A stretch of 64,000 bases of DNA, from NCBI GenBank assembly GCA_032622095.1, contig CP136068.1, positions 16,473,729 to 16,537,728 of the forward strand, given 5' to 3'. The notes under the pieces were generated by a model. That model did no database searches and was not told where the DNA came from. It saw only the letters and a list, made by a program, of their open reading frames with translations. The DNA is from Siphonodentalium dalli. Its lineage: Eukaryota; Mollusca; Scaphopoda; Gadilida; Siphonodentaliidae. A program made the translations under genes and the position numbers. Below, one piece after another: positions 10,141 to 49,594 of this stretch. The stretch's first letter is position 1. Each line of letters opens with the position of its first letter.

Positions 10141-10307
10141 ACAAAACAAGACCAGTTTTAAGAGTTTATACATACACAGATCTCTGTCGGCCGTTCTTCT
10201 CTTCATTGACTTTCAAAATTGCGACTTACATCCAAATCCAGAAGCCGATGTACGCAGAGACTGTGATTAAGAAGCGAAACATTTTCTCTTGATTGGATAT
10301 AAAAATA

Positions 10308-10368
10308 ATGGATTCCAAATATGTGTTTTATGTGTTTTTATCAGTGTTATTTGGCAGTACGTGCACAG
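10308..10368 (+). CDS. exon 1: signal peptide
   Basis: ATG at 10308 opens MDSKYVFYVFLSVLFGSTCT, a short N-terminal stretch with a hydrophobic core and small residues near a likely cleavage site. The exon ends ACAG before a consensus GTGAGT donor (10369-10374), phase 1, which fits the phase-1 acceptor of the Ig exon at 39814. No TATA box is obvious in the ~150 bp upstream. Distance to the next exon is the main doubt; a nearer alternative first exon was sought on the plus strand and not found. Confidence 0.55.
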
Positions 10369-13300
10369 GTGAGTTTGGATTTTAAAAGCTGTTAAACAGT
10401 TGAATGTAATTGAGACCACCTTTGAGATAATATGATAATAGGTATATGGTAGTAAACCAAATAATATTAGGGTTTGACCGATACCGATACGAAATACATA
10501 GAAAACAGTTAAGTGGTTTGGATTAAAAATGGCGAATGAGGTACATATACAATTTTGGTGGACAAATACAAAACTATTACGGCGAGTAATACGTATTCTG
10601 GCTCACGATATAATATGATCGTACACGACACGTAATGGAGCAACCACCAAGTTGATCATTAAGTTCAACGTTACAATAATTATATGATGTACCATACAGG
10701 GTACTGCATGTGCTACACCACTCGGAGAAATGTCTGTGTCGTCACACAAATACCATGCTATAACTTGGATTAATATATTCGTAATCGTATATAGTCACCA
10801 ATAGCCGGGTTACTACCGTAGTAACGGACATTGCCCATCTAGTGAACTATTCAAACCCAGCATTGAAATCATGGTTATGATCAGTCCAAACGTATGAGTA
10901 AAGTTCGAACATAAGATAATAATAGCTGAGAACCTGGTGCGAATTTAACTGTGGTGGGGCCTCACGCATATCTACCCCTGCACGTCAGAAAAGAAAAGTA
11001 GCTTGAGGATGGAAGTGAACCATCATCCCACAGTGAAATCAACCAGGCCTGTTGGGTTTGAATAGTTCACTAGATAGGCAATGTCGGGTACTACGGTAGT
11101 AACCCGGCTGTTGGTGACTATATACGATTACGAATATATCAATTCAAGTTCTAACATGGTATTTTAGTGTGATGACACAGACATTTCTCCGAGTGGTGTA
11201 GCACATGTAGTACCCTGTATGTATATATACATATATATATATATATCACAGCAGAAGTTTCCTTAGAATTAATGGATGGAAATGGAATGCCTCTAATATT
11301 TGTATTATTTGAGTCGGACATAGATTACCTTAGCTGCAGGCAATCAATGCAATACGTGTAAACTATGTAGAAAAAGAAATTATTGAATAAAGTGTAGTGA
11401 ATATGATGCGTCACTTTAATATTTGAGTCGGACATAGCTTACCTTACCTGAAGGCTATCAATGCAATAAGTGATGTAGAAACAGAAATTATTGAATGAAG
11501 TGTAATGAATATGAAGCGTCATTTTAATGCAATATCGATTGGGAGGAAGAGAAATGTCACTTTAATAGTTAACAATGATATACATATATAATTATAGATT
11601 ATCCCCATTGAAGACGATCAATGCAATGACCAGTGTAGAAATGGAAAAAAATGTTGCCTGAATGAATCGATGTGTGAACATAAAGTCTCACTTTAATGAA
11701 ATGTTGAGATGATGGAATCAACGATGAATTTGCAATTTCTGTAATGATGATATTGGTTCACATACCGGTATACATGTATATGCAGCTGAAAATGTGAATT
11801 GACTGAAATGTAATTATGAAAGTGTCAATGACACTGTAACTCAATGAGGAAAGGGAATAATTTCATGTGTTACAGTTAATGGAGCGATTAGGAATGTGGA
11901 AAGTTGAAAGGCCTAGTTATGCAAATATTAAAATCCAAGATGGCCGCGACAGCCATCGTTTTTTTTGCCAAATGACACAAAAAAGACTCCTTCCTATTTA
12001 CATGTCATTGTTAATATCCTTCACAAATTTCATGATGATCGGACAAAAGATACGAGCTGTAGCCCGTGTCAAAGGATTTAGTCGTGTAAAGAGTAAAATA
12101 CAAGATGGCTGCTGGCGACCAGGTTTCTTGGTTGAATTCAAAATGAACCTTTTCCCATCTACATGTAATTGTTAACATCCATTACAAATCTCATGATGAT
12201 TGGACCAAAGATTCGACTTGTAGCCCTTGACAAAGAATTTAGTCATGCAAAGAGTATAATCCAAGATGGCTGCTGGCGGCCATGTTTTTGGCCGAACAAC
12301 CCCAAAATTACTCATTTCCCATCTAAATGTCCATTTTAACATCCATGACAAATTTAATAATGATCCGACAAAAGATACGACCTGTTGCCCGTGCTAATGG
12401 ATTGAATTTTGAAATCCAAGATGACCGCTGCCGGCCTTGTTTTCTGGCCAAATGACCCCAAAATGACTCACTCCCATCCACATGTCAACATCAACATTCA
12501 TGACAAATTTCATAATGATCCAAAGTAAGGACCTGTAGCCTGTGCCAAAGGATTTAGTCATGCAAAGAGTAAAATCCAAGATGGCTGCTGGTGGCCATGT
12601 TTTTTGGTCAAACTACCCCAAAATGACTCGTTCACATCTACATGTCAATGTCATCTACATGTCAATAGCGATGACAAATATCATAATGATATGACCAAAT
12701 GTACAAACTAGAGCCTGTGCTGAAGGATTTAGTCAAGCAAAGAGTTAAATCCAAGATGTATTTTGGCCAAATGACCACAAAACAGCTCGTTCCCATCTAC
12801 ATGTCATTGTTAACACCAATGACAAATTTCATAAAGATCCGACCAAAGCTACGACCAGCAGCCCGCGTCATGCAAAGAGTAAAATCCAAGATGGCTGCTG
12901 GCGGCAATGTTTTTTGGCCGAACGACCCCAAAATGGCTCGTTCCCATCTGCCTGTCATTATAAACATCCATGACAAATTTCATGATAATCAGACGAACAG
13001 TATGACCTGTAGACCACGCGAATTGATTTAATTTTGAAATCCAAGATGGCTGCCAGCGGCCATGTTTTTTGGCCGAATGACCCCAAAATGACTCGTTCCC
13101 ATCTACATGTCAATGTCAACATTCCTTACAAATTTCATAATGATCTGACCAAAGGTACGACCTGTAGCCTGTGCCAAAGGATTTAGTCATGCATAGAGTG
13201 AAATCCAAGATGGCTGCTGGCGGCCATGATTTTTTGTCTGAATGACCCCAAAATGATTCTTTCCAATCTACATGTCATTGTTAACATCCATGACAAATTT

Positions 13301-37300: not shown

Positions 37301-40300
37301 AGGTGTAATTCGTGACTGCATGGATGTACAAATAGACCAATAGGCTGGCTCCAGCTATGAACTATTTTTTTGTGCGCAAAGCTTTATTTATTGGGAAAGG
37401 TGTAATTCGTGACTGCAGAGGTGTGTGTTGTTTCGTGTTTGTGTACACTACCTTTCATGTATGTCGTCGGAGCTCTCGTGACACAATACTAATTTATTTA
37501 TTTAATTTACCGAATTAGTGAAGTTACCTAAGAAATATTCATTGTTTCAATTAAAATGATTCAAACATGTGACGTAATAACTGATAATATTACAGCTGAA
37601 AATTTGCAGACTAGTCTGCATCATTAATTAAAACAAATTAATAAAGCTAGCTAGCAACCATTGAACGTTCTATTTTTAAATATATTATTTGTGTTATGTA
37701 GGAAGAGGGTGACTTTAGTCATACTTTAATAATATAATATATTTGAGTGCATTAATTATAAATGGGTCTTAAATCATCAGATATGATAATTAATAGAGTG
37801 TTTAGACCATTGAATTAAACAAATTTATTCACAATATTGCACAATAAATATTAATGTTCTTATTGCTGTGTTAATCGGTATGAGTTAGGCTTTAATGATA
37901 CTGAAATTTTGAGAAAAGATAATTAATGCGATTAATTAACATACATTGTGCATTAAATTGAGATCAGATAAATTTGATGATGCTTTGATGTAATTAATTT
38001 TTGTATAATACAACAATTGATGTTTTTTTAATGACCATTAAACCACAAACATTCAATTGCTAGAAATTTTAATGACCAATGTCATTACAAGGTTATTACA
38101 TTTTAATAAATTAAGTACCATTTAATGGTTTCATTAAATACACCACAAACACGAATTAATTAGGTGTTTTAATGAAATAATGACATTTTAATGCACATTT
38201 ACAGAGTTTTTGATGAACAATGCTTGCAGTAGTGATATTCTGATATATATTTTATTGAGTTCTGCAAAATTCGTTTAGCTAACTCGTTGCCGACGGTGGA
38301 TAGTTATATATCGCTCGAGCTTCAACTCATTCGAAAAAAGGTTATCGATTAAGATGCCAGTTGTGTTTAGTCTATATACATAGCGTCACTTGTAAAACAC
38401 ACACTATGTTAGTATGGTAAGTGAGGATCTATATATCTCCTAAATACTCGCTTTACTCCCTAACTGCGTCACATTTCCTCTCTTTTGTTATACATGTATA
38501 CGCACAATTAACATTCATGTAGATATCGTTCATATTTTCTTGATTTGTTGCGCGACCATTTAGTTGCAAACTTTCATATTTGGATGTTGTAGAATTCCAT
38601 GACTGAGATAAGACGCCAGCCTGTGTCTCACAATACCCTGCATAATTATGAAGACAGGCATTCATCATAAGTATATAGCATCTGCAATTACGTATAATGT
38701 TGTGTTTTTGTACTCTAATGTAAATGGCATTCGAGGAGTGAAGGCAATAGCTAACAATTTGAAATACAACAATTTGAAACACAAAAGATGTGTTTATCAG
38801 ACCTCAGGATTGGATTTCAGTTCCAGTGTCACGTTTATAAGACAACGCTTAAAGGTTATGTTGTCACTTGAGACAAATAAATATATGGAACACCATACAT
38901 ATAACCGACATCATGACGCAAAAACATATACTGAGAGGTCTATAGTCATACTCAGCTAACGCCCGTAGAGATCATATTCCACCAGTAGAAAACCTTACAA
39001 CTTTTTGAAGTTTTGTCAGGGAACCTTATAAAGTCGAACGATAACGTGGGAATATATTTCTTAGTTATTATCTGTTCCTTGATAATGAACTTCACTGTTG
39101 AAACTCGAAATTGCGTAACTTTATGAGATGATTTCGCTATAAATACTGAATTAATTGCCGAGGATAAATTCCATAATTGTAAGCAACGCAAACCAAAATC
39201 GTCCACAAAGTCACTTAAATCGTCCTGGAAACCTAGCCACTGTTATCGGGAACTGAGCAGCAATCCACCGACGAGGCTCGATTTCGTCAGCGACTACAAA
39301 TCGAACACTCTAACCATTGAGCTACTGAGTTTCGCGAGTTTTTAGGCACACAAGCTCTGATGTGCCGTGGCGGCATGCATTGGCCGATCGCGCCCTGCTC
39401 TACACGGTGCATCTGTATCGTATGGAGCGGGATGTACTCTGCCATGGTACCTGGTGATGTGGTATGGCAGGGCTGGTACATGGGAGTAAGGGTGTATACT
39501 CATTGTAGTTGGTAGTTATGGGATCTTAAAGTAATGTACGTAGCTGTAGTTTGCTACCTGCTACTGTGGATGAAAATATTGCTATGCACGAGTACAATTA
39601 CTTGGTTTAGTAGACAATGCACTTGATTGATTGAGCTCTTGTGCCTCCATGTTACGATTTAAAATATTTTTGAACTATTCGTATATAATTCGAAAAATTC
39701 GCTATTTTGCAAATAAAGTTCGAATATTCGAATACAATTTTCGAGCGAATACTGAATATTACATGCATTTACTCTTCAGTCATGAAAGCATGTCGACTGT
39801 TAATTTGTTACAGCTAATGCAGTATGGACCTCAGCAGGAAATAATTACACAACTTGTCAGGGTGTCAATATTACTCTGAAATGGCGATTCAGTCAGACGA
39901 CAATGGATGCTCAATGGTTCAAAGATGGTAGCGGCAACCGAATTGCTGTTCTCTTCAATAAAGATCCGACTGTTCTACCTACAATTAAACCTGACAGAAT
40001 TGAGTTTGTTGGAGACACACAGTCGGGGAATGCTGATATAAAGATAGTTAATTCTGTTAAAGCTGACTCGGGAATCTATACTGTAACTGTTACAGAAGTG
40101 CCTTCAGGTGTACTTCTGTTCGGAACATCTACCGTCACAGTGTTGGGTGAGTGTTGCTGTCATAATTGTTCCATGTGATTTTGGGAATTTGTGATATGGT
40201 CCATGCAGGTGTCGATACGCTATATGATCCTATATGAGGGCAACACATCCCTTTGGTGTATGCATGATGCATATACATCGCTGTTACCCGGTATTCAGGA

Positions 40301-43300
40301 TTTATACCCACGTCTGATATGGTATTAAGGATTGATAACCACGTCTGATATGGTATTAAGGATTTATAACCACGTCTGATATGGTATTAAGGATTTATAA
40401 CCACGTCTGAATTGGTATTAAGGATTTATAACCGCGTCTGCTATGGTATTAAGGATTTATAACCGCGTCTGATATGGTATTAAGGATTTATAACCGCGTC
40501 TGATATGGTATTAAGGATTTATAACCGCGTCTGATATGGTATTAAGGATTTATAACCGCGTCTGATATGGTATTAAGGATTTATAACCACGTCTGATATG
40601 GTATTAAGGATTTATAACCACGTCTGATATGGTATTAAGGATTTATAACCACGTCTGATATGGTATTAAGGATTTATAACCACGTCTGAATTGGTATTAA
40701 GGATTTATAACCGCGTCTGATATGGTATTAAGGATTTATAACCGCGTCTGATATGGTATTAAGGATTTATAACCGTGTCTGATATGGTATTAAGGATTTA
40801 TAACCACGTCTGATATGGTATTAAGGATTTATAACCGCGTCTGATATGGTATTAAGGATTTATAACCACGTCTGATATGGTATTAAGGATTTATAACCGC
40901 GTCTGATATGGTATTAAGGATTTATAACCGCGTCTGATATGGTATTAAGGATTTATAACCACGTCTTATATGGTATTAAGGATTTATACCCACGTCTGAT
41001 ATGGTATTAAGGATTTATAACCACGTCTGATATGGTATTAAGGATTTATACCCACGTCTGATATGGCTTCAAATAAAAGGCTGGTACGTGACTTTGTTGC
41101 GACAAATTGTGGTATTTGACTGGAGCGTTTTAGCCATTTTTCCTTTTCAAGGTCTCGTTCGGTTGGTCGTCCGCTATACAAATTTGTTTGATCGTGACAG
41201 CGGAAATAGAGTAATAATTGAATTATATAATTATGTAGCTATCGGGACTTTTCTCTTATATGTGGTAAAGTTTAGCAGATTACTATTGATAGAAGTGGTA
41301 ATTTCTTAACTAGATATTCACTCCTAACTGGTATTCAGTTTTCTGTCTATGCACCCTCTGTTAGCTGCATGGTATTGGGGATTACATGATCATATAGTTT
41401 AGTCTGCATTGGAAGTGCATAGATAGTAGTATACACACCATACAACTATATTGTGGTAATCCTGGTGCATCATGCGTGTATATAGTTGGCTATTAACACA
41501 GATACAAAGAACATTGGTGGTGTATTTTGTTTGTAGTTTACACCACAAACATTTGCATCCTGCCTGCACAGCAACTACAATTTGTACCACGACCCCAAAT
41601 TCCGTGCAGTGCTCTCTACGTTATCACTGCGATGTAGCACTGCCACAAGGATGGTACTTTGTTGACCGATACATCTATTTTTACATACAGTCAGAACTAT
41701 ATTTAGTCACCTATTATCTTATTTTGACCACCAAAAGTTTGAAATAAAGGTACTTCTTTCGGTATTGATAAAAACAATATGAACTCAGCCAGACATCGAC
41801 AATTTAAATCCTAATATATAAGAACTAAGAACAGGTAAGAAATCCTTTCCAAAAGTCCATTTTGGTATCTCAGCGGAGCGATGGGGTATAACTCTGTCTG
41901 GAGCTTGTCACGACCCGATCACCGACTTACACCACAGTGTGCATGAACTGAAGCACTAATTTGTACGCGTTTTCATAGTACTGTATTCGAAGCGAAGAAA
42001 TATCCTAATTAAATTTCGCGCAACGACTTTTCAAACAACTATCGTTCCGTATCTGGATAAAAAAAGCAAATCGAACACGAGTTTCATAGAACTTTTTGGT
42101 TGATAATCTTTAACCCTTTCTGTGCTAAATATATTCTCCAAGTCAGGTAAAAAGTGTACATCGGAATCGTCTATTATTGATTGGAGGGATGTTAATGTGA
42201 ATTTAGACGACAGATAAATAAAAGAGTCCTATTTATTGAGGGAAATGTTTAAATAATAAGCTCAAGATAGGACCTGCATGGTCGTTTGTTGAACTTATTA
42301 TCTGAACATGTCCTTTTTGGATAAATACTCGTCAGTCATGCTTCAGAATAGAAAGGGTTAAATTATGATACGAAAACACATCAGAATTAGCATATCTATT
42401 TCGATAGGTTTAAAGTATTCTTCAGGGAGGGTCTCAATTTGGGGTGTCTATCTTGGATTTTCCAACGACACCCCTATATTCAACCGACATTTTCAAGTTT
42501 GAGAAATTCTATTTGTTTCCCTTTGGTAATAAATTTCAAAGTAGTACTTCAAACTTACCCAATATTGGAAATTTCCAACCTAACACTCCAAAATGTTGAT
42601 AATTTGTACTTGATTGCCATTTCAGACAAATCTTTTTTTAACTAAAGTGGGAAGATATTTTGATGTAAAGAATAAATTTGGCACTAGCTACCGTTGGAAA
42701 ATCAAACTATAACTATATTAGGAATTCACCCTAATTTGGATTTTTTGGAAATTCCCCATAACGTTGTGCCAGACATGATCTTTCCAAAGTTGACATTGGG
42801 GAGCTGGTGAGGGGAGACAACTTCCCTGTTTCTGTTTCACCAAAGGAGAAACTACCGAGGAGCTCATTTATCTTCAACTTGTTTTGTATTTTCTTTGGCA
42901 GTTGCACCCGCCGGCTTAAGCGTGACAGGTACCGGACATAATCGGACATGTCAACTAACATCGGCAGGAGAACCTGCTGTTGACTTGTACTGGAAGGTTC
43001 GTATTCATAATTATTTCTGCACCACGTTCTCTTCTATTGAAACTAAAATAACAATAAATCGACAAAAGTAACAACTTACATGTATATTGACTTAAAATAC
43101 ATGTGATGTGTGTATTCAATTAATCAAACTAATAAGCGAATTATGAAAATAATTACGTTATTGACTATTCTCAATCGATCACACCAAATTGAGTGTTTCA
43201 TATCACGTTAACCCTTTCTATACTAACAAGTAATTCTCGAGTAGTTCATTTAGACCATGTTAAGACAATAAGTTATTATCTGGAAATTTCCCACCAAGGA

Positions 43301-46300
43301 ATAAGAATCCTTTTATATTATGTATCCTTCTATATCGCATGTAACCTTATGCTGTTTGTGTACATTGCTCTCTTCTACCACTTTCAGCATATGTATGGTC
43401 AATTTCTTATCATACTCATCAGTATTAGTACGTAATTTAGCAAGGGCCCTATTCTCTTGTGAACCTGTTAGTCCGAGTTTTGACTTATAATTCAGCTTTA
43501 CGTTTTGTTCATGACAGTATATATCCATCCTGCTTTTGAATTCGTTTGGCCCCTCGATGTACATCACTTTTTCTGGCAGATTGTTTCATGGTTACACAAC
43601 TCTATATTGATGAAGGTGTATTTCCGAAGTCTCTGGTGGAGCTATAGTCATCGCTCCCCGTCCATCATCCGTCCATCCATCCATCCATCCACCCTTCAAC
43701 ATTTTCTTCTCCGGAACAATAATACTGAATGAGTTTATATTGCGCTTAGATGTTCCCTCGGTGACTCACATTCAGATTTGTTCAGATGATTTTACTGTGT
43801 CAAGCAGTTACAAAGCCAGGCCCATAACTCTTTCCCTCCATAGAAATATTAAAAAGACATCTCAAATATTCATATTTGGTATTAAGTGTTCTGTGGTGAC
43901 TGGGGTTCAGGTTTGTTCAAATGAGGTCACTGGGTCAGCCAGGGACAAACCCCACCCCCCGAATTGCCACATTTGGAATATTTCTAACGTAAGAATGATG
44001 TCATATTGGAAATTCCCAACGGTTAGAGAGTTTGAAGTACCAGTTGTAAAATATATAGATTGGTTAGGAGTCGACTGGCTATAATTAGAAATTGCAAGTT
44101 GAACACCCTCTGCCCCCTGTATGTCAAAGATGATCCTCTAGCTATGTGATTTGACAAGTACTGACTCCAGTAGTCTTCAGAGTCGCAGTCTTCTTTGCAT
44201 TTAAAGTCAGGTGAGCACTCCACAGTCATTGACTGTCTTGCCTTTGAGATGATCATGGAATGTCAGTACTCAAATATCTTTTTTCTTTGTTTACCACTTT
44301 AGTTGGTGTGATTCTGCATCTGTTGTTGTCATGTTATATGTTGTTGCATAGCAGTTGTTCACACACTTCTCCGGGTGGAAGCTTAGAAGCCACTTCTCCG
44401 ATCATTGATGTAGAGATTACATATCTTCTTCGAGGATCTTCGTGTATATCTGCCCTTTGCTTATTTTTCCTGAACTCCTTCCAGACAGTTATAAACCCAT
44501 TCCAATTTATACTTCTATAAATGGGTGAAAGAGTACATTTATATAGTAAAGTAATGGTTAAATATTTTGCTCTTCATTGGCAGGACGGTAGTGGAAATAA
44601 GATAGTGGGACCCACCACTACATTGGACCTCAACACACCAGAAAGTATCTTCGATGGAACGTACGGATGCTGCATGTCAGGCAAACCAGTCCAATGTTAT
44701 AGTGGAGCATCATCATCCACTGATTACTGTGTCACTGTAACCATAGGTGAGTGACATAAAAAGCATCTTGCATATGTCCTTTGCACTGGTAATGTATGCT
44801 TATCAGAAGAACTGGTCAAGATTTGCGGAACCGGAAGCACAGATGGTCGCATTAGCACAGTAGGCAAAGGGAGAGACGCACGTTTTGCATATATCCATCC
44901 AAAATGGCAAGATATTCTCAACAAAGAATTTCTCTGAATATATCTGGCGAAAAATCTTGAATTTCACATATTATCATCCTCAGTGTAAAGAGAATCTGAG
45001 CAATTAACAAGAGTCGATAAAACAATGGATTTTAATATATTTGAGAGATTGAAAGTATTATTTTCATTTTTTGTCACTTTCGGCTCCAATAACTGCTATA
45101 ATAATTAATAAATTCACACAACACTCCAGTCCAAATAGCTTATTGTCTTAGCTCTATGAGAGGTGGCTTCATTTGTATCACAATGTTGAGTTAGATTTTG
45201 AATTGCATCATATAGCATCATACCCCATATATTGTGGTGAAGAATAAAGCAGTCACAAATATTCCAGCCGGATGGAAAGAAATGTTGATATGCTGGGTGG
45301 TTCACTCAAGCACAAGCAGGGAGCAGATCAACTGGAATTATGCCATGCTGTTAAGAGATGTTGGTCAGATTTAACTTGTCTATGACACAGAACTCATTTC
45401 AGCCCAACTTTCCATTGACCTCTGGCACGGCATGAACATTCTAAAATATAGAACATGCTTTATGGGTATTTGCCTTTGTAATTGGCATTGATAATAATGA
45501 TTAAATTTCATGAATTAAGAAAAAATAAGTCAATTCTCATGATCTGCAGATGTGATATAATGGATATATGAACTGCACTTTTGAAAAAATAGAATTTACA
45601 GAAGTTCTTGGTACCGGAAAACAGCGAAATTTTTAATATTTGTATGCCATAAAAGTAAAGTAAATGACGTTATAATATCCAATGGGTGGATAGTTCTTAA
45701 ATATTGTGTCACATTAATCGCTTATAGCAAATTTCACAAAGAAATTATGGACAGATTTTGAGAAATTCCATTTTATATACCAGGAACTGTTGGCAAAACG
45801 TGCGTCGGACCCTCAAACGACACGCTGACTACCATGTACAGAGCGGCAGTCAATTTCAAACTTATAATCCACCCTTGGTTGCAAAGCGCAGTTTGCTGTG
45901 AGTAGGAAGACAGTCTGCGTGTTCAAATGCTGGTGCTGTGCACACGACGGTGCTAGGTTGTTGCCGCCGGATCAGGTGGCAATCTGTATACTACACATAC
46001 ATGTACCCGATGTATTATGTGCACATAAATGAACTAAACAAAACAAGACACAGCCTTTACTGTATCATGCCGGGTATACAAGCAAAACGTGTTACGTTAA
46101 TCGCTTCAATTGGATACTTTATCTTGTAGCTACTAACAGTGCGTTCTGATTGGTCCTATACTTACCAGGATGGGTTCATTACGTTGCAAATTAACCCATT
46201 ATCATTACTTTTAACATGCTGCATTACCATTACTTTGATAACAGATAAATAATGCATTACATTTACCGTTACTATCGAAATTTATGCATTAATGTTATTA

Positions 46301-48998
46301 TTAGTTTCAGTGTGTTAGATTTAAACTTAAAAAAATTAAACTGTTTGTGGTATCGCTGTATAACACGTCCCAGGTTCTTTAACACTAAGTCGGCAACTCT
46401 CAGTCATAGACATTTATTATACACGTATATAATACTTAACATCAGGCAGCCACGGAGAACACATAATCATAGCTACCACGACGAAGAGTTCGTCGTGGAT
46501 AGCTTTACCTAAAAGTGGAAGATAGAATTCAGAGTCGGGCGAGTCTAGGCTCTGTCCAGAATATATATGCCAAGGGTCAACGACCTGAAGAGTCAATGAA
46601 CCGGCCTCTACTCCCATGTCTAATAGATTAGCGACCCGTGAGTGAATAGTCGCGAGATCATTCACCCAGAGGTTGCTAACCAACCTGAATAGATCATGTA
46701 TACGCCAGGACGATAACCCTTCTTAATAATAGTTTTAACCATACTCACGCCATCTCAATAGCTGGAAGTGTTACATAACTCTTATCACCCTTTTCAACAT
46801 TTTTGTCCTAAGACAAAAAACTTGATGATTCCGTGATAGAGATCCAAACTATCCCATTGGGAATATGGATAGCTCTGAAAATACATGTAACACAATAACA
46901 CACAAGTTCCTAACACAGGAATGTCATACTCCGGAAGTTCGTTAATCGAGTGAAATCGTTGATATAAGGGAATTGTTCTGAAACAGAGGAATGTCATAAT
47001 CCTAGAATAAGCTTTGGTTCTGCAGAGTCGGTTCTGATCCAGCGTTGAAAGTTAATGGTGCCTCTCCCTATTAACCCCGTTTGTCGTGGCTATATTCCGA
47101 ATAATCGGTTGATCCAGATCCAGCATTGGAAGTTAATGGTGCCTATCACTATATTCGATGTAATCCAGCATTGGAGAATAACGGTGCTTTTCCCGGTCAT
47201 TCCCGTACGTCCTAAACATGTCCTAAATAATCGCGTTGTTTCGGTATGAAAATTGGTTAAATTTCAACTTGACCTTGAATTCGGGCGTAAATATTGGTAA
47301 AGGATCAATATGTGTTAATATGTAGGGTATGACTTCCCGTCATAGCTTTATCGCCTTCTATCGATACGAAAGTTGATTAAATATCAACTTTATCTTGAAT
47401 TCGGGCATAAATTGGTTAAGGGGTCAATATATTGATGCTCTATAACATAAACGTTTACAAAATCATTGGCAACGACGTGTCAAATCTCGTCGTTCGTGTC
47501 ACATCACTATCCAAATTAACCTGGAACGCCATATTAAACATAATTTGTGGGTATCGAATTTAACAACTATGGAATATTTAATTAAAATATTATATTGTGA
47601 ATTCGTTCCAAGATAATCCGGCTGATACATTCAAATAAATCCCTTAGTTATTCGAAGCTTTCAAGAATCATCCCTGCCCCAATCAAGGATTGTGGTCGAA
47701 AATATTATAATTCAAGCCTGTACAGGATACAATTGTGACAGGAACTTGTTCAACCTTTGGCTTGAGAAACATAAACTACTAAATTATGGATGAAAAATGG
47801 GGGGGGGGGTATCACTCTTTTTAATTTCAACGCTGTACCTGCATTAATATTTTTCGAAATCAATTAAAACTCGTGAAAAATAGCAACATATATCAGACAT
47901 GATTTATTCATTTCGGTATCCATGAAAGAAGACATGTTTTTGATCGGCCTGAAATTTCTTGATAGCAGTTAGTTTGATAATGGCCTATAACTACCTCCTT
48001 TGTCTCGCCTATTGAAATGGACCGATCAATGATTGGTGCGACCATGTAAAATACATGGAATACAGGGGTTTTGCATACATAAATAACATACAAGTGTGTA
48101 TCCACCCTATGCACCTATTTGTTTTTGGTTTACTTCAAACACGAGAATAAGTGACTAGAATATATAGTGTCCTCCGTTCGGCGCGAGTAGTTTTATCTGC
48201 TTGAGGAGCGGTAAAACGTATATTTTTCACCCATCGATAAACGTCCCATAATCATGCCAGACAGCACGTTTACCAATATTCTAATTTACACCTACTGAAC
48301 AATCATGTTATAGACACATTCAAGAATCTACCGAAAAGTTAAAGACATATTATGGACTTGTTTGGGAACATGAAACTGACCAGTTAGTATTTAGACGCCA
48401 TGCCAACTGGTTGAATGTAGCTTTCTATTAACATAGCCGACAATCTGAAGTAAATCAACTGTACCACTCCATATAAATCGTCATCCGTACTACGCTCAAA
48501 TGTAAATATTTACATCTCGATTCGGAACGCAACTATCGGCGACAAACTTACGAAAAATAATTTCACAACCGAGTGTCACTGCATTTCATCACTATATACA
48601 AATGACGGTGTGTGTTGTGAAAAATAGCTACTTTGAGTAAGATTATTCAACGTTTCTATATGGTCACCCAACTGGAGTGTTTCACATCACTTTATTGAAC
48701 TGGTATATATCCTTATGGAAATTCAACTATCTTTAGAAAGAGATGGTTAATGTATACCAATGTATTCGGAGTATTCATGATGCGTTTATGTCATGCTTTT
48801 TTATATTTATTGCAATTATGTTTCATTAATACAGTAGTTTTTTGAAAATATACAGTTTAGACTATATTCAACGTCTTCTATCATAATGTTTCATCATCCA
48901 CAGGTGTGTCCGGAGGAGCGATAGCTGGAATTTCTATTTCATGCGTTCTTGGTTGTGTCTTTATTGGTCTTCTGTGGCAGTTGCATATAATAAAATGA
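10308..48998 (+). CDS. two-Ig-domain type I membrane protein, five exons (gene model)
   Basis: Exons 10308-10368, 39814-40146, 42902-42996, 44584-44746 and 48904-48998 join into one 747-nt frame (248 residues and TGA). Junction phases run 1, 1, 0, 1, and every intron starts GT and ends AG. The protein has a signal peptide, a V-like Ig domain, a second Ig domain, one membrane segment and the tail QLHIIK. Phase-1 borders around domains are typical of extracellular Ig genes. The architecture suggests a cell-surface recognition or adhesion protein; with almost no cytoplasmic tail it would need a partner to signal. NxT glycosylation sites occur at NYT, NIT and NRT. Introns are 29.4, 2.8, 1.6 and 4.2 kb. 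The weakest links are the distant first exon and the GTTCGT donor of exon 3. Extra or alternative exons may exist. No orthologue was recognised. Confidence 0.65.
10690..11230. mobile_element. non-autonomous element with ~175-bp terminal inverted repeats
   Basis: Arm 10690-10862 (from ACCATACAGGGTACTGCATG) is the inverse of 11050-11230, which ends CATGTAGTACCCTGTATG. The arms match over roughly 170 bp with scattered changes, including TAGCCGGGTTACTACCG and its complement. The central ~190 bp contains GAACCTGGTGCGAATTTAAC, which is related to 35575-35725 and weakly to 25120-25270. There is no coding capacity. Confidence 0.88.
11215..11247. repeat. (TA)n microsatellite
   Basis: A short GTATATATAC...TATATATATAT run at the right edge of the inverted-repeat element. 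Confidence 0.85.
11290..11705. repeat. degenerate tandem repeat, 3 copies, period about 115-170 bp
   Basis: Copies share TTTGAGTCGGACATAG, CAATCAATGCAATA, GAAATTATTGAAT and GTCACTTTAAT. The first two are close, and the third (11590-11700) is diverged and lacks the start. Confidence 0.75.
11925..13655. repeat. ~160-bp satellite, about 11 copies
   Basis: The CCAAGATGGCTGCTGGCGGC word recurs at about 11936, 12103, 12261, 12417, 12578, 12752, 12888, 13043, 13207, 13371 and 13506. Other conserved blocks are GACCCCAAAATGACTCGTTC, CCCATCTACATGTCA, CATGACAAATTTCAT and AAAGGATTTAGTCATGC. It ends in an ACACACACGCACACA run. Open frames across it are repeats of the unit, not genes. Diverged relatives lie at 34790-35400 and 35930-36150. 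Confidence 0.92.
13737..14165 (+). mobile_element. repeat family T, copy 1
   Basis: The segment from GGTGGAGTTACGATAC to AAGCAAAACACTCAACACCG is strongly similar to 28566-28995 (same orientation) and, in part, to 29255-29490 (inverted). Shared words include GTCCATGAGGATCTT, AACCGCCATAAACAG and GTAAACAAACAGTACAT. An AGATTGGGTAAGTG splice-donor-like string is part of the repeat, not an exon. No coding potential. Confidence 0.85.
14166..15470. other. no supported gene; 18-bp-stem hairpin at 14694-14747
   Basis: AATGAGGTTCCCAGAGGG pairs with CCCTCTGGGGACCTCATT across a ~18-nt loop. The second arm recurs at 31240-31270 (CCTGGGGACCTCATTCTGC), so this is probably a dispersed repeat. A minus-strand frame 15028-14771 (85 codons, MQADDNRLTDNTY...) has no recognised domain and is left as unproven. 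Confidence 0.5.
15475..16105. mobile_element. possible TIR element, ~40-bp terminal inverted repeats
   Basis: The left end ACCGGCAGACTTTCATCTTT continues to GGCGCGC, and the right end GCGCGCCTCAAAAATGAAAG continues to TCTGTACCGG, so the two are inverted with several mismatches. GCTCGCTGG-type words occur near both ends. The target duplication is unclear. A minus-strand ATG frame ending at a GTGAGT donor (15673-15621) lies inside, but I do not regard it as established. Confidence 0.5.
16177..16427 (+). repeat. direct repeat, two ~80-bp copies
   Basis: Copies at 16177-16257 and 16350-16427 share GAAATTGGACCC, GGGATCAAAGTAG and TCAAGGACA. A related inverted segment occurs near 34180-34290 (CGGGTCCAATTTCACGTG). 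Confidence 0.75.
16428..16880. mobile_element. CCGCGG-module repeat element
   Basis: The element starts GTACCCCGCTGGACAAAACA and consists of a ~25-bp module in both orientations (consensus like CACCGCGGCCGAACGGCAAG). The same element, better preserved, lies at 31366-31905. The GC-rich module lacks stops, so long frames open on both strands; I treat these as artefacts of the repeat. Its right terminus is truncated near 16800. Confidence 0.82.
16900..17060. repeat. ACGAC-rich low-complexity sequence
   Basis: Irregular reiteration of ACGACAA/AACGACC words on the plus strand with almost no T. This opens a Ser/Cys/Val-rich frame on the minus strand that is not credible as a gene. Confidence 0.75.
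17565..17720. repeat. tandem duplication at the 3' flank of the Penelope-like copy
   Basis: Two ~70-bp copies share TTTGCGAGTATGTC, AACCTGTGTATA and CAGGATTTAGT at about 17572 and 17657. They lie just beyond the endonuclease remnant, where the element's 3' end is expected. Confidence 0.8.
17830..18180 (-). pseudogene. GIY-YIG-like endonuclease remnant of the Penelope-like element
   Basis: Downstream of the RT stop and in another frame, the minus strand reads WNVCRSCDWDN, NFKSRTKFHMC and then VYTGSSQSIEARI. This resembles the Cys-rich linker and the [YV]xG...R core of the GIY-YIG nuclease that follows RT in canonical Penelope-like elements. Further residues continue in a third frame (HFNDLTLKRQ) before stops. 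The domain is therefore present but detached and broken. Assignment rests on position and a short motif. Confidence 0.55.
18195..20159 (-). CDS. Penelope-like element reverse transcriptase
   Basis: An uninterrupted 654-codon frame. The N-terminus is lysine/arginine-rich, followed by EPDEILVLALGLKFIPSP, the conserved pre-RT motif of Penelope-like elements. Then come YLLPKIHK (fingers), VTYDITSLYTNL (motif A with catalytic Asp), GVPMGSIPSPE (motif B), KRFRDDGIILFHG (motif C, the catalytic DD), FTYDISEKEAAFLDLDIYKG and a thumb-like C-terminus ending GRNLGEIISIKRV. The protein copies RNA into DNA for retrotransposition. Start could be 20159 or the internal ATG at 20147 (MASRR). The stop at 18197-18195 cuts off the endonuclease, which lies downstream in another frame, so the copy is probably immobile unless the truncation is real biology. 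A second copy is split between 22325-22600 and 32905-33148. Hosted in intron 1 of the Ig gene, antisense to it. Confidence 0.9.
   Translation of the reverse strand: MVTIMASRRFNRKRKTRNKQIKIQKICAKSKIAKSKDFKVDSAKIFIRNRSSYRLEPDEILVLALGLKFIPSPHIKPTHIMTDFRRFERNMRLRFLFSEALMTKGSRERHPFLTKKEFSPPMGNNTLENYIFATKMNISNYQPMVANNLTIDMKKSVKKLRNNEDIIILKADKNNTTCVLNKTDYISAGLRQLNDGIHYEEIPEISMLEAHQCELTAVHKLYESKSIDECTYKYLFNRSDKIKIPYLYLLPKIHKVGHILESIDPAFNDTNVDIHVPGMPIIAHCGGATEKLGRFLDYFLLPITKTQPTHLRNTPDLIKILEEREFPNDVLIVTYDITSLYTNLKFDEIIDALRIELDNNANIVYNTQRPSTDELLELTQLLLTKNEFTFNGKSYRQIVGVPMGSIPSPEISDIAIHAHIWKILDQFPHKNKILLHKRFRDDGIILFHGSKDEAMLLFKIANSMHDLLKFTYDISEKEAAFLDLDIYKGLNFDSSNKLDCKCHIKQTEAFQYLHRSSNHPTNNFRSFVRGECIRYLRNCNNESDFIARRDIFVVKLRKRGYSGSEIQQYMADIKFTDRNSYLTRNEMGTKQGIHNVLLTTTYHKGSNNLSRTLGKYWNMISDSSRLKAGSADSKPSIIYKRGRNLGEIISIKRV
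20316..20640. repeat. inverted repeat arm 1 (leader of minus-strand Penelope-like copy)
   Basis: From GTCTAGAAATAGACTGG to CACATATCGCATTTC it is the inverse of 22008-22318, with about 95 percent apparent identity. Differences include a TCTATT present only here, near 20500. It lies 5' of the RT frame and probably represents the element's leader or pseudo-LTR. Confidence 0.9.
20801..21451 (-). CDS. unrecognised 216-codon ORF upstream of the Penelope-like RT (possible ORF1)
   Basis: A clean minus-strand frame with ATG at 21451. The N-terminus is acidic (MANAEMKSEIGEELDYNVEV). The middle is Leu-, Glu- and Lys-rich with heptad-like stretches (VLEKLEAEISVMNAGLSDI), suggesting helix or coiled coil. 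The C-terminal ~40 residues are Arg/Asn/Gly-rich (NGHNGKRPRYNNSS, DHRGNRNGRYFPTQ) like a nucleic-acid-binding tail. It lies between the two inverted leader repeats and ahead of the RT in the same orientation. By analogy with ORF1 proteins of other retroelements it could package RNA, but no homologue is recognised and membership in the element is inferred from position. Confidence 0.6.
   Translation of the reverse strand: MANAEMKSEIGEELDYNVEVDNIPSGQLQVNSKSLIQNTLDLFEGLAQKRQPLLTLKAHVVESLAEGSTVDPLIQVTCKRLNFGDEATKGKLQPDIDDLVKESQNTSSRTVLEKLEAEISVMNAGLSDITKSALLELPINHPQSGGARKEIVAGTRSINNKYTNKLTEFRRELVNPNSSVRSHQNGHNGKRPRYNNSSRFREDHRGNRNGRYFPTQ
21452..22007. other. unique core between inverted repeat arms, no gene
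   Basis: AT-rich spacer upstream of the 216-codon ORF. It may contain the promoter for that ORF, but no core element can be named. It contains one ATG frame on the plus strand without protein-like features. Confidence 0.4.
22008..22318. repeat. inverted repeat arm 2 (leader of plus-strand Penelope-like copy)
   Basis: Inverse of 20316-20640. It is followed directly by GACGGGTAAACGTTTGCTTTT, which is the end of the RT leader, and then by RT coding sequence. The segment equivalent to 20185-20315 is missing here. Confidence 0.9.
22325..22600 (+). pseudogene. Penelope-like RT fragment, 5' part of split copy
   Basis: Nearly identical to the minus-strand RT from DFRRFERN through KADKN (84 codons from the internal ATG at 22350). 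The start codon and first ~85 codons are deleted: leader sequence ending TTTGCTTTT is fused to TTTTCGTCGATTC, sharing a short T run at the join. The reading frame continues in 32905-33148 after a 10.3-kb interruption. Confidence 0.92.
22601..22775 (+). mobile_element. repeat family U, segments A and C
   Basis: Segment A (GATGCCGACTTGCGCAAAGC to GTGGGTAGTCCGAGA) recurs at 29009-29095. Segment C (CAACCTCATACAAATG to CTTTTGTGCTCAT) recurs inverted at 29175-29230. It abuts the break in the Penelope-like copy exactly, so it marks the left edge of the inserted block. Confidence 0.85.
22776..23618. other. no gene recognised
   Basis: Unique AT-rich sequence between family U segments and the tandem-ended TIR element. 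It contains a short TCATCAGTGCATCAAGC stretch and scattered TACATGTA, and no exon-like features. Confidence 0.4.
23619..24486. mobile_element. 868-bp TIR element whose termini are 16-bp tandem repeats
   Basis: The left end is six to seven copies of GAAGGTTCACTAATCC-like units (23626-23745). The right end holds five copies in inverse orientation (GGATTAGTGAACCTTC, 24397-24478). The flanks are near-identical: GGATATACGGG before 23619 and GGATATACAGGG after 24486, a probable ~10-bp target duplication. The interior is AT-rich and non-coding. It fits a non-autonomous DNA transposon. Confidence 0.88.
24487..24859. other. no supported gene; weak Ig-like exon candidate at 24819-24873
   Basis: The acceptor-like AATTAAACAG is followed by a frame reading TDETVVWYKGD, which looks like an Ig C strand, and a GTGAGT donor. 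The donor end is part of repeat family U and the phases (1 to 2) do not fit the known exons, so it is not included in the gene model. Confidence 0.3.
24860..24960 (+). mobile_element. repeat family U, segment B
   Basis: AATTTCCCAGTTATGTGAG through CCAGATGCAAAAAAACAGC matches the inverse of 29090-29175. In that copy, B is joined directly to C, whereas here about 2.1 kb intervenes. Confidence 0.85.
24961..25817. other. repeat-derived sequence, no gene
   Basis: 25120-25270 contains GAACCTGGTGCAAAATGG and CACCAGGCTCTGTTCAT, related to the core of the element at 10690-11230. 25300-25345 (ATGAGCATACGCTAGCGTAA) has a diverged relative at 49440-49485. No coding exon recognised. Confidence 0.5.
25818..26000 (-). 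CDS. short ORF with CxxC motif, possible first exon or transposon fragment
   Basis: A minus-strand ATG frame of 60 codons: MSRHKLTEDNICRVCDYSF, then a basic stretch, ending KSIKLSHFLGV. The CRVCxxS start resembles zinc-binding N-termini seen in RAG1-like and other transposon-encoded proteins, but only one CxxC is present. It may be truncated. No splice donor matches well. Low certainty. Confidence 0.25.
   Translation of the reverse strand: MSRHKLTEDNICRVCDYSFSGDELAASTGKLHPRAKNKVVIKNDALELFKSIKLSHFLGV
26001..26892. other. no gene recognised; G-run at 26447
   Basis: AT-rich with a ten-base G run near 26447-26456. Small ATG frames on the plus strand at 26520-26890 overlap each other and carry no motif. 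Confidence 0.45.
26893..28412. mobile_element. G-run element with inverted ends and internal ~170-bp tandem repeats
   Basis: The left end is GTGTAACAGGATATCTCCCC then CACCCTGGATATCGCCCCCC and CATATATGACTAACA. The right end (28200-28412) is its inverse, ending GGGGGAGATGATGTGGTACA. Inside, a unit containing CCTGACCTGGACAT, CCCTGACTCAAACAAC, TCTCGCTGTTTCATGAC, TATAAAGCAAAATAAGCG and GTCATGTAGGTGCTGGGT recurs about seven times. Each unit carries a G or C run of 7-13 bases. No protein is plausible. Confidence 0.82.
28566..28995 (+). mobile_element. repeat family T, copy 2
   Basis: Closely similar to 13737-14165 (CCGGTGGAGTTACGGTACC to AAGCAAAACACTCAACAC). Together with the inverted copy at 29255-29490 it forms arms around a family U core. 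Confidence 0.85.
28999..29245 (+). mobile_element. repeat family U, rearranged copy (A, inverted B, inverted C)
   Basis: Segment A is in the same orientation as at 22601. Segments B and C follow in inverse orientation and are contiguous. Relative to 22601-24960 this is A with an inversion of C..B and without the ~2.1-kb middle. Confidence 0.82.
29255..29490 (-). mobile_element. repeat family T, inverted partial copy
   Basis: GCATTTCTAACAAAAGTTCA through GAGTGTTTTGCTTATTGC, CTGTTTGTTTACATAACATG and TAAGAACAAGG is the inverse of 28800-28995. Confidence 0.8.
29491..30140. mobile_element. second G-run element, right part
   Basis: Two to three internal units like those at 27130-28140 are followed by the right terminus (CTGGCCATTTCAGAACCAAA to GGGGAGATGACGTGTTACAC). 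The left end is absent, probably replaced by the family T/U complex. Confidence 0.8.
30141..30589. other. no gene recognised
   Basis: Contains TACATGTA/ACCGGTAC words and a short GTGGTAACATACTGTGGTAA duplication near 30250. No exon-like structure. Confidence 0.4.
30590..30696. repeat. foldback element related to 52169-52306, centre deleted
   Basis: AATGAACAGCAGTTTTAATG then GTGGTCATGGGAATTTGACC at the left, and GTCAAAACCCATGACAACGT then TGAATCCACCATTTA at the right. Both arms match the 52-kb foldback, but the inner ATGAACCCC/GGGGTTCAT part is missing. Confidence 0.85.
30697..31365. other. no gene; short shared repeat at 31220-31276
   Basis: 31220-31276 (CACCAAATTCATCCCCTGG, GGACCTCATTCTGCAAATG) is related to 14715-14755. 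The remainder is unique AT-rich DNA. Confidence 0.45.
31366..31905. mobile_element. 540-bp CCGCGG-module TIR element
   Basis: The left terminus GTACCCCGCTCGACAAAACA then GTGTCCATTGGCACC is mirrored by GGTGCCAATGGACACTTG ending CCAGCGGGGTAC at 31905. Between them ~25-bp modules such as GTGTACTTGCCGTTCGGCCG alternate in both orientations. Long open frames on both strands arise from this stop-free composition. A second, partial copy follows. Confidence 0.88.
31906..32130. mobile_element. partial CCGCGG-module copy
   Basis: Continues from the previous element with ACCGTGGTTAGATTTCAGG (as at 16618) and ends GGACACTTGTTTTGTCCAGC at 32125. It corresponds to the right half of the 16428-16800 copy. 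Confidence 0.82.
32131..32815. other. mostly unique sequence; contains one minus-strand exon candidate
   Basis: AT-rich sequence without repeats I recognise. The only protein-like feature is the candidate signal-peptide exon at 32427-32364 described separately. Confidence 0.4.
32364..32427 (-). CDS. candidate signal-peptide exon of an unidentified minus-strand gene
   Basis: The minus-strand ATG at 32427 opens MLLLQFLFTAIGTLRVINSE then L, followed by a phase-1 junction at TTAG and a consensus GTAAGT donor. This has the same layout as the signal exon at 10308 (hydrophobic leader, phase-1 donor). No following exon on the minus strand could be identified, so it may be chance or a relic of an inverted paralogue. 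Confidence 0.3.
32816..32904 (+). repeat. 12-bp tandem repeat and terminal hairpin at right edge of inserted block
   Basis: ACAAATAAACAG is repeated three to four times (32816-32856). The last 35 bp contain ATTACTTGCG and CGCAAGTAAT as an inverted pair ending precisely where the Penelope-like RT sequence resumes. A short tandem tail of this kind is common at retroposon 3' ends. Confidence 0.75.
32905..33148 (+). pseudogene. Penelope-like RT fragment, 3' part of split copy
   Basis: The frame resumes at NTTCVLNKTDYIS, exactly the residue after KADKN where 22600 stops, and continues to YLYLLPKIH. It is nearly identical to the 18195-20159 copy with about five replacements in 70 residues. It is then cut off by a (TACATACCCACAC)n-like array. 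Confidence 0.92.
33149..33465. repeat. ACTATACATACCCAC-type minisatellite
   Basis: Imperfect 12-16 bp copies such as CACTATACATACCCA and ACGATACATACCC. It begins at the truncation point of the Penelope-like fragment. Confidence 0.9.
33466..33725. other. no gene recognised
   Basis: Short unique AT-rich segment. Confidence 0.4.
33726..33915. mobile_element. short GC-rich repeat, probable transposon end
   Basis: Contains CCCGGGGGACGACCCCCGG, a near-perfect hairpin, then CGACGCCTTCGGCGTCG and ATCGCTTCGCGATGA, two further small hairpins, ending TACGCCCCTGATTGG. This type of GC-rich tail is familiar from dispersed repeats of marine invertebrates. The family is not named. Confidence 0.5.
34075..34120. 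repeat. TGTATGTG/TGCATGAA microsatellite-like stretch
   Basis: Irregular TGTATGTATGTGTGTATGC followed by ATGAATGCATGTGTG. Confidence 0.75.
34315..34680. repeat. ~125-bp tandem repeat, three copies
   Basis: Copies at about 34322, 34455 and 34580 share GGGTCAAAT, GACCTGAC, TTGACATTCAAAA and TCAATTCAAGGT. The first is preceded by a related inverted block at 34180-34290. Confidence 0.85.
34790..35420. repeat. diverged relatives of the ~160-bp satellite
   Basis: Words such as GATGACTGCTGGCGGCAATG, GTGACGATCGGACAAG and AAGATCACCGCTGGCAG recur with about 160-220 bp spacing, as in 11925-13655, but are heavily mutated. A plus-strand frame at 35218-35580 crosses it and is not convincing. Confidence 0.6.
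35575..35725. repeat. repeat related to the core of the 10690-11230 element
   Basis: GATAACTTGGTGTGAATTG, TCTCAAGCATATCTAACCC and CCACGTTAGAAAACATGCC parallel 10928-11050, without the flanking inverted arms. Confidence 0.7.
35930..36150. repeat. further diverged ~160-bp satellite copy
   Basis: GTCAATGGAGCAATTATGAA resembles 11875-11895, and GCAATATGGCCGCTGGCGAC resembles the satellite core. Confidence 0.6.
36171..36462 (+). repeat. direct duplication, two ~120-bp copies
   Basis: TTTTTATGTTCACTTTATAA, CACTGAGTCATCTTTGTCAT and TTTGTTAACAGTTTATAAAT occur at 36190-36290 and 36358-36460, period about 170 bp. ATTAAATAAAGTTGC between them resembles a polyadenylation signal or retroposon tail. Confidence 0.88.
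36463..37250. other. no gene recognised
   Basis: Includes a short tandem TTTTATTCCGAGTTGGC (twice, 36652-36685). Small frames on both strands have no motif. Confidence 0.4.
37250..37422 (+). repeat. direct duplication, two ~72-bp copies
   Basis: GTGCGCAAAGCTTTATTTAT followed by TGGGAAAGGTGTAATTCGTG occurs at 37275 and 37370, about 95 bp apart and nearly identical. Confidence 0.9.
37423..38479. other. AT-rich, no gene
   Basis: 37600-38240 is extremely AT-rich with scattered TTAATGACC and ATTAATTA words in both orientations. Possibly decayed transposon sequence. Confidence 0.45.
38459..38665 (-). CDS. candidate minus-strand exon with tyrosine motifs
   Basis: After an acceptor-like AATTATGCAG the minus strand reads GYCETQAGVLSQSWNS, then SKYESLQLNGRATNQ and ENMNDIYMNVN to a stop at 38459. 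SKYESL fits the ITIM-like pattern [SIVL]xYxx[LIV], and YMNV resembles SH2-binding tails. It could be a cytoplasmic tail exon of a receptor gene on the minus strand, but no membrane exon was found upstream. Could be chance. Confidence 0.25.
39262..39332 (-). ncRNA. tRNA-derived SINE head or tRNA pseudogene
   Basis: The minus strand carries TAGCTCAATGG (39324-39314), a perfect pol III A-box, and about 25 bp later GACGAAATCGAGCCTCGTC, a T-arm/B-box-like hairpin. The A-to-B distance is a little short and the T loop enlarged, so a functional tRNA is unlikely. A SINE head is the best reading. Its 3' body is not identified. Confidence 0.5.
39660..39775. repeat. TTCGAA-rich degenerate stretch
   Basis: TTCG/CGAA words cluster irregularly (ATTCGAAAAATTCGC, GTTCGAATATTCGAATAC) immediately upstream of exon 2. 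It resembles a low-complexity repeat. Confidence 0.6.
39814..40146 (+). CDS. exon 2: V-like immunoglobulin domain lacking canonical cysteines
   Basis: The acceptor TTGTTACAG precedes a 333-nt symmetrical phase 1-1 exon ending at GTGAGT (40147). It encodes about 110 residues: a B-strand-like ITLKWRF in which Trp occupies the usual Cys position, a C-strand DAQWFKDGSGNRI, and an F-strand KADSGIYTVTV in which Thr replaces the usual Cys. A lone Cys (TTCQG) precedes the B strand. D-x-G-x-Y is the classical V/I-set signature. Ig domains without the core disulfide are known in the CD2 and CEACAM families, but no orthology is implied. NYT and NIT are potential N-glycosylation sites. Confidence 0.85.
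40285..41066. repeat. 31-bp minisatellite in intron 2, about 25 copies
   Basis: The unit is TGGTATTAAGGATTTATAAC followed by CACGTCTGATA. Most copies differ only by A/G in ACCACG versus ACCGCG. A rarer TCTGAATTGG variant appears at 40409 and 40688, 279 bp (nine units) apart, pointing to a nine-unit block duplication. Confidence 0.97.
41067..42901. other. rest of intron 2, no gene
   Basis: Unique AT-rich sequence. 42420-42760 contains TTTGGAAATTTCC-like words and may be a decayed repeat. The polypyrimidine tract TTTTGTATTTTCTTTGGCAG precedes exon 3. Confidence 0.5.
42902..42996 (+). CDS. exon 3: first half of Ig domain 2
   Basis: The acceptor TTCTTTGGCAG precedes a 95-nt exon (phase 1 to 0) encoding APAGLSVTGTGHNRTCQLTS and then EPAVDLYWK. 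It holds the B-strand Cys (RTCQL) and C-strand Trp (YWK) of an Ig domain. The donor is GTTCGT, a weak GT site, but the break after YWK pairs exactly with DGSGNKI in the next exon, mirroring WFKDGSGNRI in domain 1. NRT is a potential glycosylation site. Confidence 0.78.
43313..43567 (-). pseudogene. LINE reverse-transcriptase C-terminal fragment
   Basis: The minus frame VMYIEGPNEFKSRMDIYCHE followed by QNVKLNYKSKLGL has the form of the extreme C-terminus of many non-LTR retrotransposon ORF2 proteins (...V...N.FK.RLD.YW..Q...). Only about 80 codons remain, in intron 3 of the Ig gene. Family assignment is uncertain. Confidence 0.5.
43660..43694. repeat. (ATCC)n microsatellite
   Basis: CATCCGTCCATCCATCCATC followed by CATCCACCC. 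Confidence 0.9.
43740..43975. mobile_element. dispersed repeat (GTGACTCACATTCAGATTTG family)
   Basis: Two related segments here contain TTCAGATTTGTTCAGATGA and TTCAGGTTTGTTCAAATGAG followed by GTCACTGGGTCAG. The inverse is found at 59215-59395 (CCCAGTGACCTCATTTGAAC), in the intron of the minus-strand gene. Confidence 0.75.
44584..44746 (+). CDS. exon 4: second half of Ig domain 2
   Basis: The acceptor CATTGGCAG precedes a 163-nt exon (phase 0 to 1) ending at GTGAGT. It encodes DGSGNKIVGPTTTLDL, then FDGTYGCCMSG, where Y-G-C supplies the canonical F-strand Cys, and TDYCVTVTI. Additional cysteines (CCM, QCYSG, DYC) could form a second disulfide within the domain. Together with exon 3 it completes an Ig fold interrupted by a phase-0 intron after the C strand. 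Confidence 0.82.
44747..48339. other. intron 4 left part: small repeats, no gene
   Basis: 46468-46500 holds a hairpin with stem CCACGACGAA/TTCGTCGTGG. 47035-47215 contains three diverged copies around CCAGCATTGGAAGTTAATGG. 47225-47415 contains two copies of a block with TTGAATTCGGGC and GGTCAATAT about 120 bp apart. 47792-47801 is a ten-base G run. A minus-strand frame 46683-46417 has no known domain. Confidence 0.55.
48340..48694 (-). pseudogene. second Ty3/gypsy fragment (protease-RT linker)
   Basis: Collinear with 4879-5255: shared strings include AAAGACATATTATG, TGTACCACTCCATA, GACGGTGTGTGTTGT and GGAGTGTTTCACATCACTTT. Indels and substitutions are numerous and no frame is open. It lies just upstream of exon 5, in intron 4. 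Confidence 0.85.
48904..48998 (+). CDS. exon 5: transmembrane segment and short tail
   Basis: The acceptor CATCATCCACAG precedes a phase-1 exon encoding SGGAIAGISISCVLGCVFIG then LLWQLHIIK and TGA at 48996-48998. This is a single hydrophobic helix of about 22 residues after a small Gly/Ala-rich stalk, leaving only about six cytoplasmic residues. It is a typical final exon for a type I membrane protein. No clear AATAAA signal was found close downstream. Confidence 0.78.
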
Positions 48999-49594
48999 AT
49001 AGCGGGCCGGATGGAGGGTAAGAAGCTGGCGATATGTTGGATTGGTCTAATACGTATAGTCGTGTTAGATGCTATGACATATCACGCCGTTGTAATGCAT
49101 AATGCATAATGTAGAGGAAAGACTGATCGTGCAGATTCGAAGCATTCAACCTCATAGAGCATCTGACATCCATACAAAATGGGATAATATTCTATTTGCG
49201 TGGGTCATGCTCTAACTTGTATTCGAAATAGTGTTGCCATCACTGCAAACAGTGCTTACAAAGGCTCGCCTTGATTGGTCAATCAGGTCTGGTACATCCT
49301 GAATTCCACTATTATAGTTGTATTCCCCTATTCTGGTGGTATATGACCATTACCGTTTTTTATGAATTTGACAAAAGAGGGATAATCCAAAGCCATATTT
49401 CACACCATTTATTCGAAATCAGTGATCACGCTAATTTTGTAATATGAACATAAGCTAGCTTAATTAACGAACCAAAGCTGAACAACATTGGTGCCCGTTT
49501 GGTGGGGTGGGGCGTTTAACAATTTATGTGGTCACTCAACCAGTAAAACTTATTTTGTGACATGGCATAGCGGCTGAAATGACGATAAACCTTT
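48999..49594. other. 3' flank of Ig gene, no polyA site recognised
   Basis: Presumed 3' UTR. No clear AATAAA before the LINE fragment. 49440-49485 resembles 25305-25345. Confidence 0.4.

Follow-up and report, generated by a model that had tools for sequence, protein, structure and literature searches.

Gene structure at the locus

The analysed window is a stretch of 64,000 nucleotides (C8:16473729-16537728), and the genome searched with it comprised 2.23 Gb in nine contigs. It carries a gene of five plus-strand exons with a span of 38.7 kb (Table 1). All four introns are of the GT-AG type, and a check of the joined frame gave phases 1-1-0-1 and a spliced frame of 747 nt, corresponding to 248 aa plus the TGA. 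The first-pass annotation had proposed these five exons and an exact 248-residue frame, and both are borne out by the joined frame and the intron borders. The architecture which it had assigned, with a signal peptide, two Ig domains, a membrane helix and a six-residue tail, is backed by many paralogs, the second Ig domain being called from its pattern and from family conservation.

The exons were also said to agree beyond chance, and this holds: there is a single exon-1 candidate upstream on the plus strand, and collinear relatives are found genome-wide. A chance assembly of exons was therefore rejected. Like its family, the gene has a collinear exon 1, Ig1 exon, exon 3, exon 4 and membrane exon on one strand. 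A full five-exon paralog, with the same order, was found at C8:17860355-17928999, and no other single observation supports the gene model as strongly. The comparisons within the genome raise the predicted protein-coding gene from plausible to well supported. Three family profiles detected no further Ig-like exons of the family in the window.

Table 1 Exons and flanking blocks of the gene (positions in the window) and collinear relatives elsewhere in the genome (contig:Mb, given as Ig1/exon 3/exon 4).
Feature	Position	Strand	Description
5' block (upstream region, exon 1, start of intron 1)	8804..10432	+	82-92% identity to C8:15.31, 16.63 and 17.86 Mb (blastn of L044, L045, L046)
Exon 1	10308..10368	+	ATG and signal peptide MDSKYVFYVFLSVLFGSTCT; phase 1 at end
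Exon 2	39814..40146	+	all of Ig domain 1 (V-set type, canonical cysteine pair lacking); phases 1-1
Exon 3	42902..42996	+	Ig domain 2, N-side half (APAGLSV...TCQLTSAGEPAVDLYWK); phases 1-0
Exon 4	44584..44746	+	Ig domain 2, C-side half (YGCC...C...YC); phases 0-1
Exon 5	48904..48998	+	membrane helix, tail QLHIIK (six residues), TGA stop 48996-48998
Probable 3' untranslated region	49019..49442	+	49019-49430 88% identical to C8:16.71 Mb paralog; homology ends at 49442
Collinear relative	C8:17.879/17.883/17.923		Ig1/exon 3/exon 4
Collinear relative	C7:188.975/188.985/188.986		Ig1/exon 3/exon 4
Collinear relative	C8:47.266/47.263/47.262	-	Ig1/exon 3/exon 4
Collinear relative	C8:46.258/46.255/46.254	-	Ig1/exon 3/exon 4
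Collinear relative	C8:10.481/10.478/10.472	-	Ig1/exon 3/exon 4
Collinear relative	C8:11.098/11.095/11.025	-	Ig1/exon 3/exon 4
Collinear relative	C3:117.028/117.063/117.067		Ig1/exon 3/exon 4
Collinear relative	C5:13.129/13.127/13.121	-	Ig1/exon 3/exon 4
Collinear relative	C8:141.473/141.482/141.484		Ig1/exon 3/exon 4

First Ig domain and the gene family

One V-set domain is encoded in full by exon 2, with a Pfam score of 34.1 bits (cut-off 26), and all 25 aligned relatives of this exon matched V-set at E 0.01 or better. The canonical B-F cysteine pair is absent, being replaced by Trp (LKW) in strand B and Val (YTV) in strand F, both here and in nearly all relatives. The latter follow the pattern LxW in B and YTV in F, and mostly retain one upstream cysteine. 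V-set domains lacking this pair are a known exception in the Ig superfamily, so membership in it stands. Single-sequence folding of exon 2 failed (mean pLDDT 35.7), and the assignment of the V-set fold therefore rests on the sequence profiles.

Searching the genome with exon 2 gave 37 matches, including itself, the others having 39-55% protein identity. Reciprocal searches with two distant members recovered essentially the same 37-38 places, showing that the Ig1 family is closed and countable. It has ~38 Ig1 exons, nearly all stop-free, located mostly on C8 and C3, with some on C2, C5, C6 and C7. The gene reads as one member of a lineage-specific Ig-superfamily (IgSF) expansion. This family of ~38 Ig1 exons, several members of which have longer tails, was absent from the first-pass annotation, and in the literature searched we found no description of an IgSF family of ~38 V exons.

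Many Ig1 exons form near-identical pairs, 0.5-1.4 Mb apart: C3:116.59(-)/117.49(+), C8:15.35/16.71, C8:46.26/47.27 and C8:10.43/10.96, one set being inverted. With many such pairs, there are fewer distinct genes than Ig1 matches. The pairs may have arisen by recent segmental duplication, or may be haplotypes left uncollapsed in the assembly; such haplotypes, if present, may change the counts, not the gene model.

Second Ig domain

Exons 3 and 4 had ten matches each in the genome, including themselves. The order Ig1, exon 3, exon 4 on one strand recurs at nine other loci (Table 1), with some near-duplicates among them. The second domain shows a C...W...C and YxC pattern, plus extra invariant cysteines across the exon 4 matches, with five cysteines conserved. 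Pfam gave no match for this sequence when the second domain was searched alone, and for one relative it gave Ig_2 at E 0.033, below the cut-off. The domain was therefore called from the C...W...YxC pattern and family conservation, and we infer that it is a cysteine-rich, C2-like Ig domain. A DNA search with the flanks of exon 4 recovered, besides itself, only a dispersed repeat.

Signal exon

The 151 bases around exon 1 had 11 matches in the genome, including itself. Those copies that were read retain the ATG, the donor GTGAGTTT and a length of 61 bases. All matches (11/11) lie 19-116 kb upstream of an Ig1 exon on the same strand; a random point has a ~0.001 chance of being so placed, the 11 copies not being independent of each other. 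We also scanned for an ATG with a hydrophobic open stretch and a GTRAGT donor in phase 1. The exon at 10308 was the sole plus-strand candidate in 1-39813, and the whole minus strand, used as control, gave one. Compared with L044, exon 1 had 6 non-synonymous to 0 synonymous differences, small numbers whose direction fits a loosely constrained signal peptide.

A second type of signal exon (type B, MDPTYVMFVF/MVPTYVMFVF) was seen at C8:16397880, 16607838 and 15302793 (L049, L047; at 15302793 it is known from its position alone). It lies 12-86 kb upstream of a copy of the exon-1 type described above (type A) in three C8 clusters, one of them that of this gene. Type-B exons are possibly alternative first exons, or belong to extra genes with an undetected V exon.

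Membrane exon, tail and 3' region

The helix (residues 220-242) has zero charged residues and the tail has no Tyr. Three possible N-glycosylation sites were found in the protein (31, 39 and 145). A paralog of exon 5 (L068, C8:16713186-16713875), from the copy nearest to this gene, matched over 686 bases at 81%, and a different Ig1 exon lies ~7.5 kb upstream of it. At the equivalent place (C8, 16.7135 Mb) it encodes GLSGGEIALIVIVCCFIIGIVVGASIWKYRGNHR*, that is a helix and a tail of ~seven residues (KYRGNHR). Between the two copies, the block 48926-49018, covering the portion of exon 5 that encodes helix and tail plus the next 20 bases, diverges fast: its identity is 63%, with 14 gapped positions, against 90% for the intron and 3' flanks (Fisher p = 2e-9). 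The TGA at 48996 comes ~20 bases before the TAA of L068, and the alignment reads as a net length difference in the block that shifts the frame. This fast divergence could mean relaxed constraint on exon 5. The short tail seems to characterise a subgroup, as judged from its two known members, between which the exact stop differs.

Splicing to a longer tail through the donor-like GGTAAGA at ~49018 was considered and found irrelevant to the protein, because the TGA precedes it in frame. As the TGA lies before any later donor, a longer tail from downstream splicing would require exon 5 to be skipped or replaced.

Other paralogs have tails of ~30 (L053), ~75 (L057, L063) and ~65 residues (L065), and those of L054 and L055 are probably spliced. 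The longer tails of L057 (942-1250), L063 (1501-1845) and L065 (1501-1790) share a motif like APVTGANDxDV, and their end regions have N(P/S)S(F/C)IGN and no visible ITIM or ITAM. Inspection by eye of the longer paralog tails read gave no obvious ITIM or ITAM.

Selection and similarity between copies

In exon 2, compared with nine relatives, third codon positions were the least conserved, and synonymous exceeded non-synonymous differences per site; identities at the three codon positions were 0.62/0.67/0.44 against L003. The same was found for exon 4 (0.65/0.69/0.38 against L033). Both patterns show purifying selection at the protein level on exons 2 and 4. Among recent family pairs dN was mostly lower than dS, with L012/L015 reversed.

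Similarity to other copies is unevenly distributed along the gene. In DNA, the 5' block matches both the C8:15.3 Mb and the 16.6-16.7 Mb copies, and for a 3' block at ~48368-49442 (80%) a match was found only at C8:16.71 Mb. At those C8:15.3 and 16.6-16.7 Mb copies the protein identity of the Ig1 exon is only 42-43%, and the introns do not align. Similar ends around a diverged middle mean that the central part of the gene is old, whereas its ends are recent or have been homogenised. The simplest reading of these mosaic ends would be gene conversion or recombination between copies.

Other elements in the window

Intron 1 contains, at 18195-20171 (-), an open frame of 658 residues which by eye looks like a Penelope-type reverse transcriptase, with no Pfam match; truncated copies of it lie at 22320-22604 (+) and 32848-33100 (+). 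A neighbouring frame of 220 residues at 20801-21463 (-) also had no Pfam match. At 2119-5719 (-) lie broken pieces of an LTR retrotransposon; they include an aspartyl protease and a fragment weakly resembling RNase H. Intron 4 has a piece of a dispersed repeat (44867-45000), for which a first look at the genome gave ~1,700 candidates. Tandem arrays, with unit lengths in brackets, occupy 1-540 (32 bp), 40290-41066 in intron 2 (31 bp), 50739-51752 (111/329 bp) and 56923-58374 (152 bp).

Comparison with known Ig-superfamily systems

The nearest solved chains by sequence, among the matches listed and with weak E-values, include JAML, CAR and CD276, which are adhesion or co-stimulatory Ig proteins. 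JAML, at E 1.8e-7 with the Ig1 profile, and CAR, at E 0.003-0.005, were best or near-best among the matches listed. The gene resembles the CTX/JAM type (JAML, CAR) in having a V-set domain, a putative C2-like domain and one helix, the sequence matches being partial and weak. It differs from CTX/JAM/CAR in that its V domain lacks the canonical disulfide and is contained in one exon, and in its tail of six residues.

In the CD2/CD58/CD48 (SLAM) group, a disulfide-free V domain sits atop a C2 domain that has extra cysteines and two disulfides, and CD48 and CD58 are ligands with no tails or tiny ones. The likeness to the gene is one of design, a disulfide-free V domain above a cysteine-rich, C2-like domain, here with five conserved cysteines. 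No CD2/SLAM member was matched by sequence among the solved chains listed (40, and the best 60), and the resemblance is likely convergence.

Among invertebrate systems, the Hydractinia Alr family (41 genes, with V-set and I-set domains; PMC11999971) is, by description, a lineage-specific IgSF family of similar size, although presumably from another phylum. The oyster CgIgIT2, proposed to act in immunity, is likewise a membrane IgSF protein of an invertebrate; it has five Ig domains and an ITAM tail (PMC11999971), whereas the gene described here has two Ig domains and no ITAM. Mollusc FREPs (PMC7588048) likewise form a multigene family with one or two IgSF domains, and they are defined by a C-terminal fibrinogen domain; in this gene the second Ig domain is instead followed by a membrane helix and then the TGA.

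Proposed working mode and alternative readings

We think it probable that this is a real gene of a lineage-specific IgSF family whose product acts passively, as ligand, adhesion partner or decoy. The exon-1 peptide would send the chain into the secretory path, and the single helix of exon 5 would hold it at the cell surface. There, the outer V-set domain may contact a ligand or counter-receptor, either in fluid or borne by another cell, with the cysteine-rich second domain as a putative membrane-proximal spacer. The cytoplasmic part of the protein, of six residues, contains no tyrosine, and the helix is uncharged. By itself the protein would therefore be unable to signal, and it shows no site where an adaptor bearing a charge could dock. 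It might instead be read by receptors of an opposing cell, possibly by its longer-tailed family relatives. Immune recognition, self recognition and tissue adhesion are candidate roles; a possible immune or adhesion relation was also put forward in the first-pass annotation.

Dependence on a partner for signalling, which the first-pass annotation had suggested, found no support, because the helix has no charged residue, and ITAM-adaptor partners usually need one. A ligand, an adhesion molecule or a decoy would fit the short tail just as well. A ligand-binding receptor whose signal passes through an adaptor chain associated with it would agree with the very short, motif-free tail, and the tailed family members indicate that signalling members exist or existed. 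Still, we regard such a receptor as unlikely: Lys, Arg, Asp and Glu are missing from the helix, as they are from that of L068 except for an edge Glu, and the longer tails, read by eye, lacked obvious ITIMs or ITAMs. Helices free of charge can still pair laterally, which makes partner signalling possible; the uncharged helix and tyrosine-free tail favour a ligand, adhesion or decoy role over it.

The ends of the gene invite two further readings. The true first exon could be another one, for example the type-B MVPTYVMFVF exon that lies beyond the window, 86 kb upstream of 10308 (C8:16397880), or the two exons could serve as alternative starts; the three C8 clusters in which a type-B copy is followed by a type-A copy and then by a single detected Ig1 exon would suit this. 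We consider it quite unlikely, since the exon at 10308 is the nearest and has the right phase and strand, and in the C8:17.86 Mb gene a type-A exon 1 lies 18.7 kb before Ig1, with no closer alternative found. At the other end, the frame of exon 5 might have slipped in a decaying copy, possibly expressed and losing function, which now ends early at TGA 48996. The low identity and gaps of 48926-49018 between conserved flanks, the frame-shifting length difference from L068, the donor-like GTAAGA after the stop, and the longer tails in most other readable family members all point that way. Decay is nevertheless improbable: exons 1-4 have no stop or frameshift, exons 2 and 4 keep their excess of third-position differences, the helix is intact, and the frame of L068 is also short-tailed. 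The passive ligand, adhesion or decoy protein is thus the reading that we retain.

Significance

As one gene, the locus is ordinary. It is an example of a gene with five exons and a transposon-filled 29-kb first intron that could be read correctly from raw sequence. By analogy with an allorecognition or diversified immune system, the family might further be a recombining recognition repertoire, in which old, strongly diverged V cassettes are combined with similar ends, and tail-less members serve as ligands or decoys for tailed ones. The shared ends would then be the signal exon with the promoter, and the helix exon with the 3' region. We put this forward tentatively and hold it doubtful. If the mosaic reading is true, the family would merit testing as a candidate system by which a presumed lophotrochozoan recognizes individuals or pathogens.
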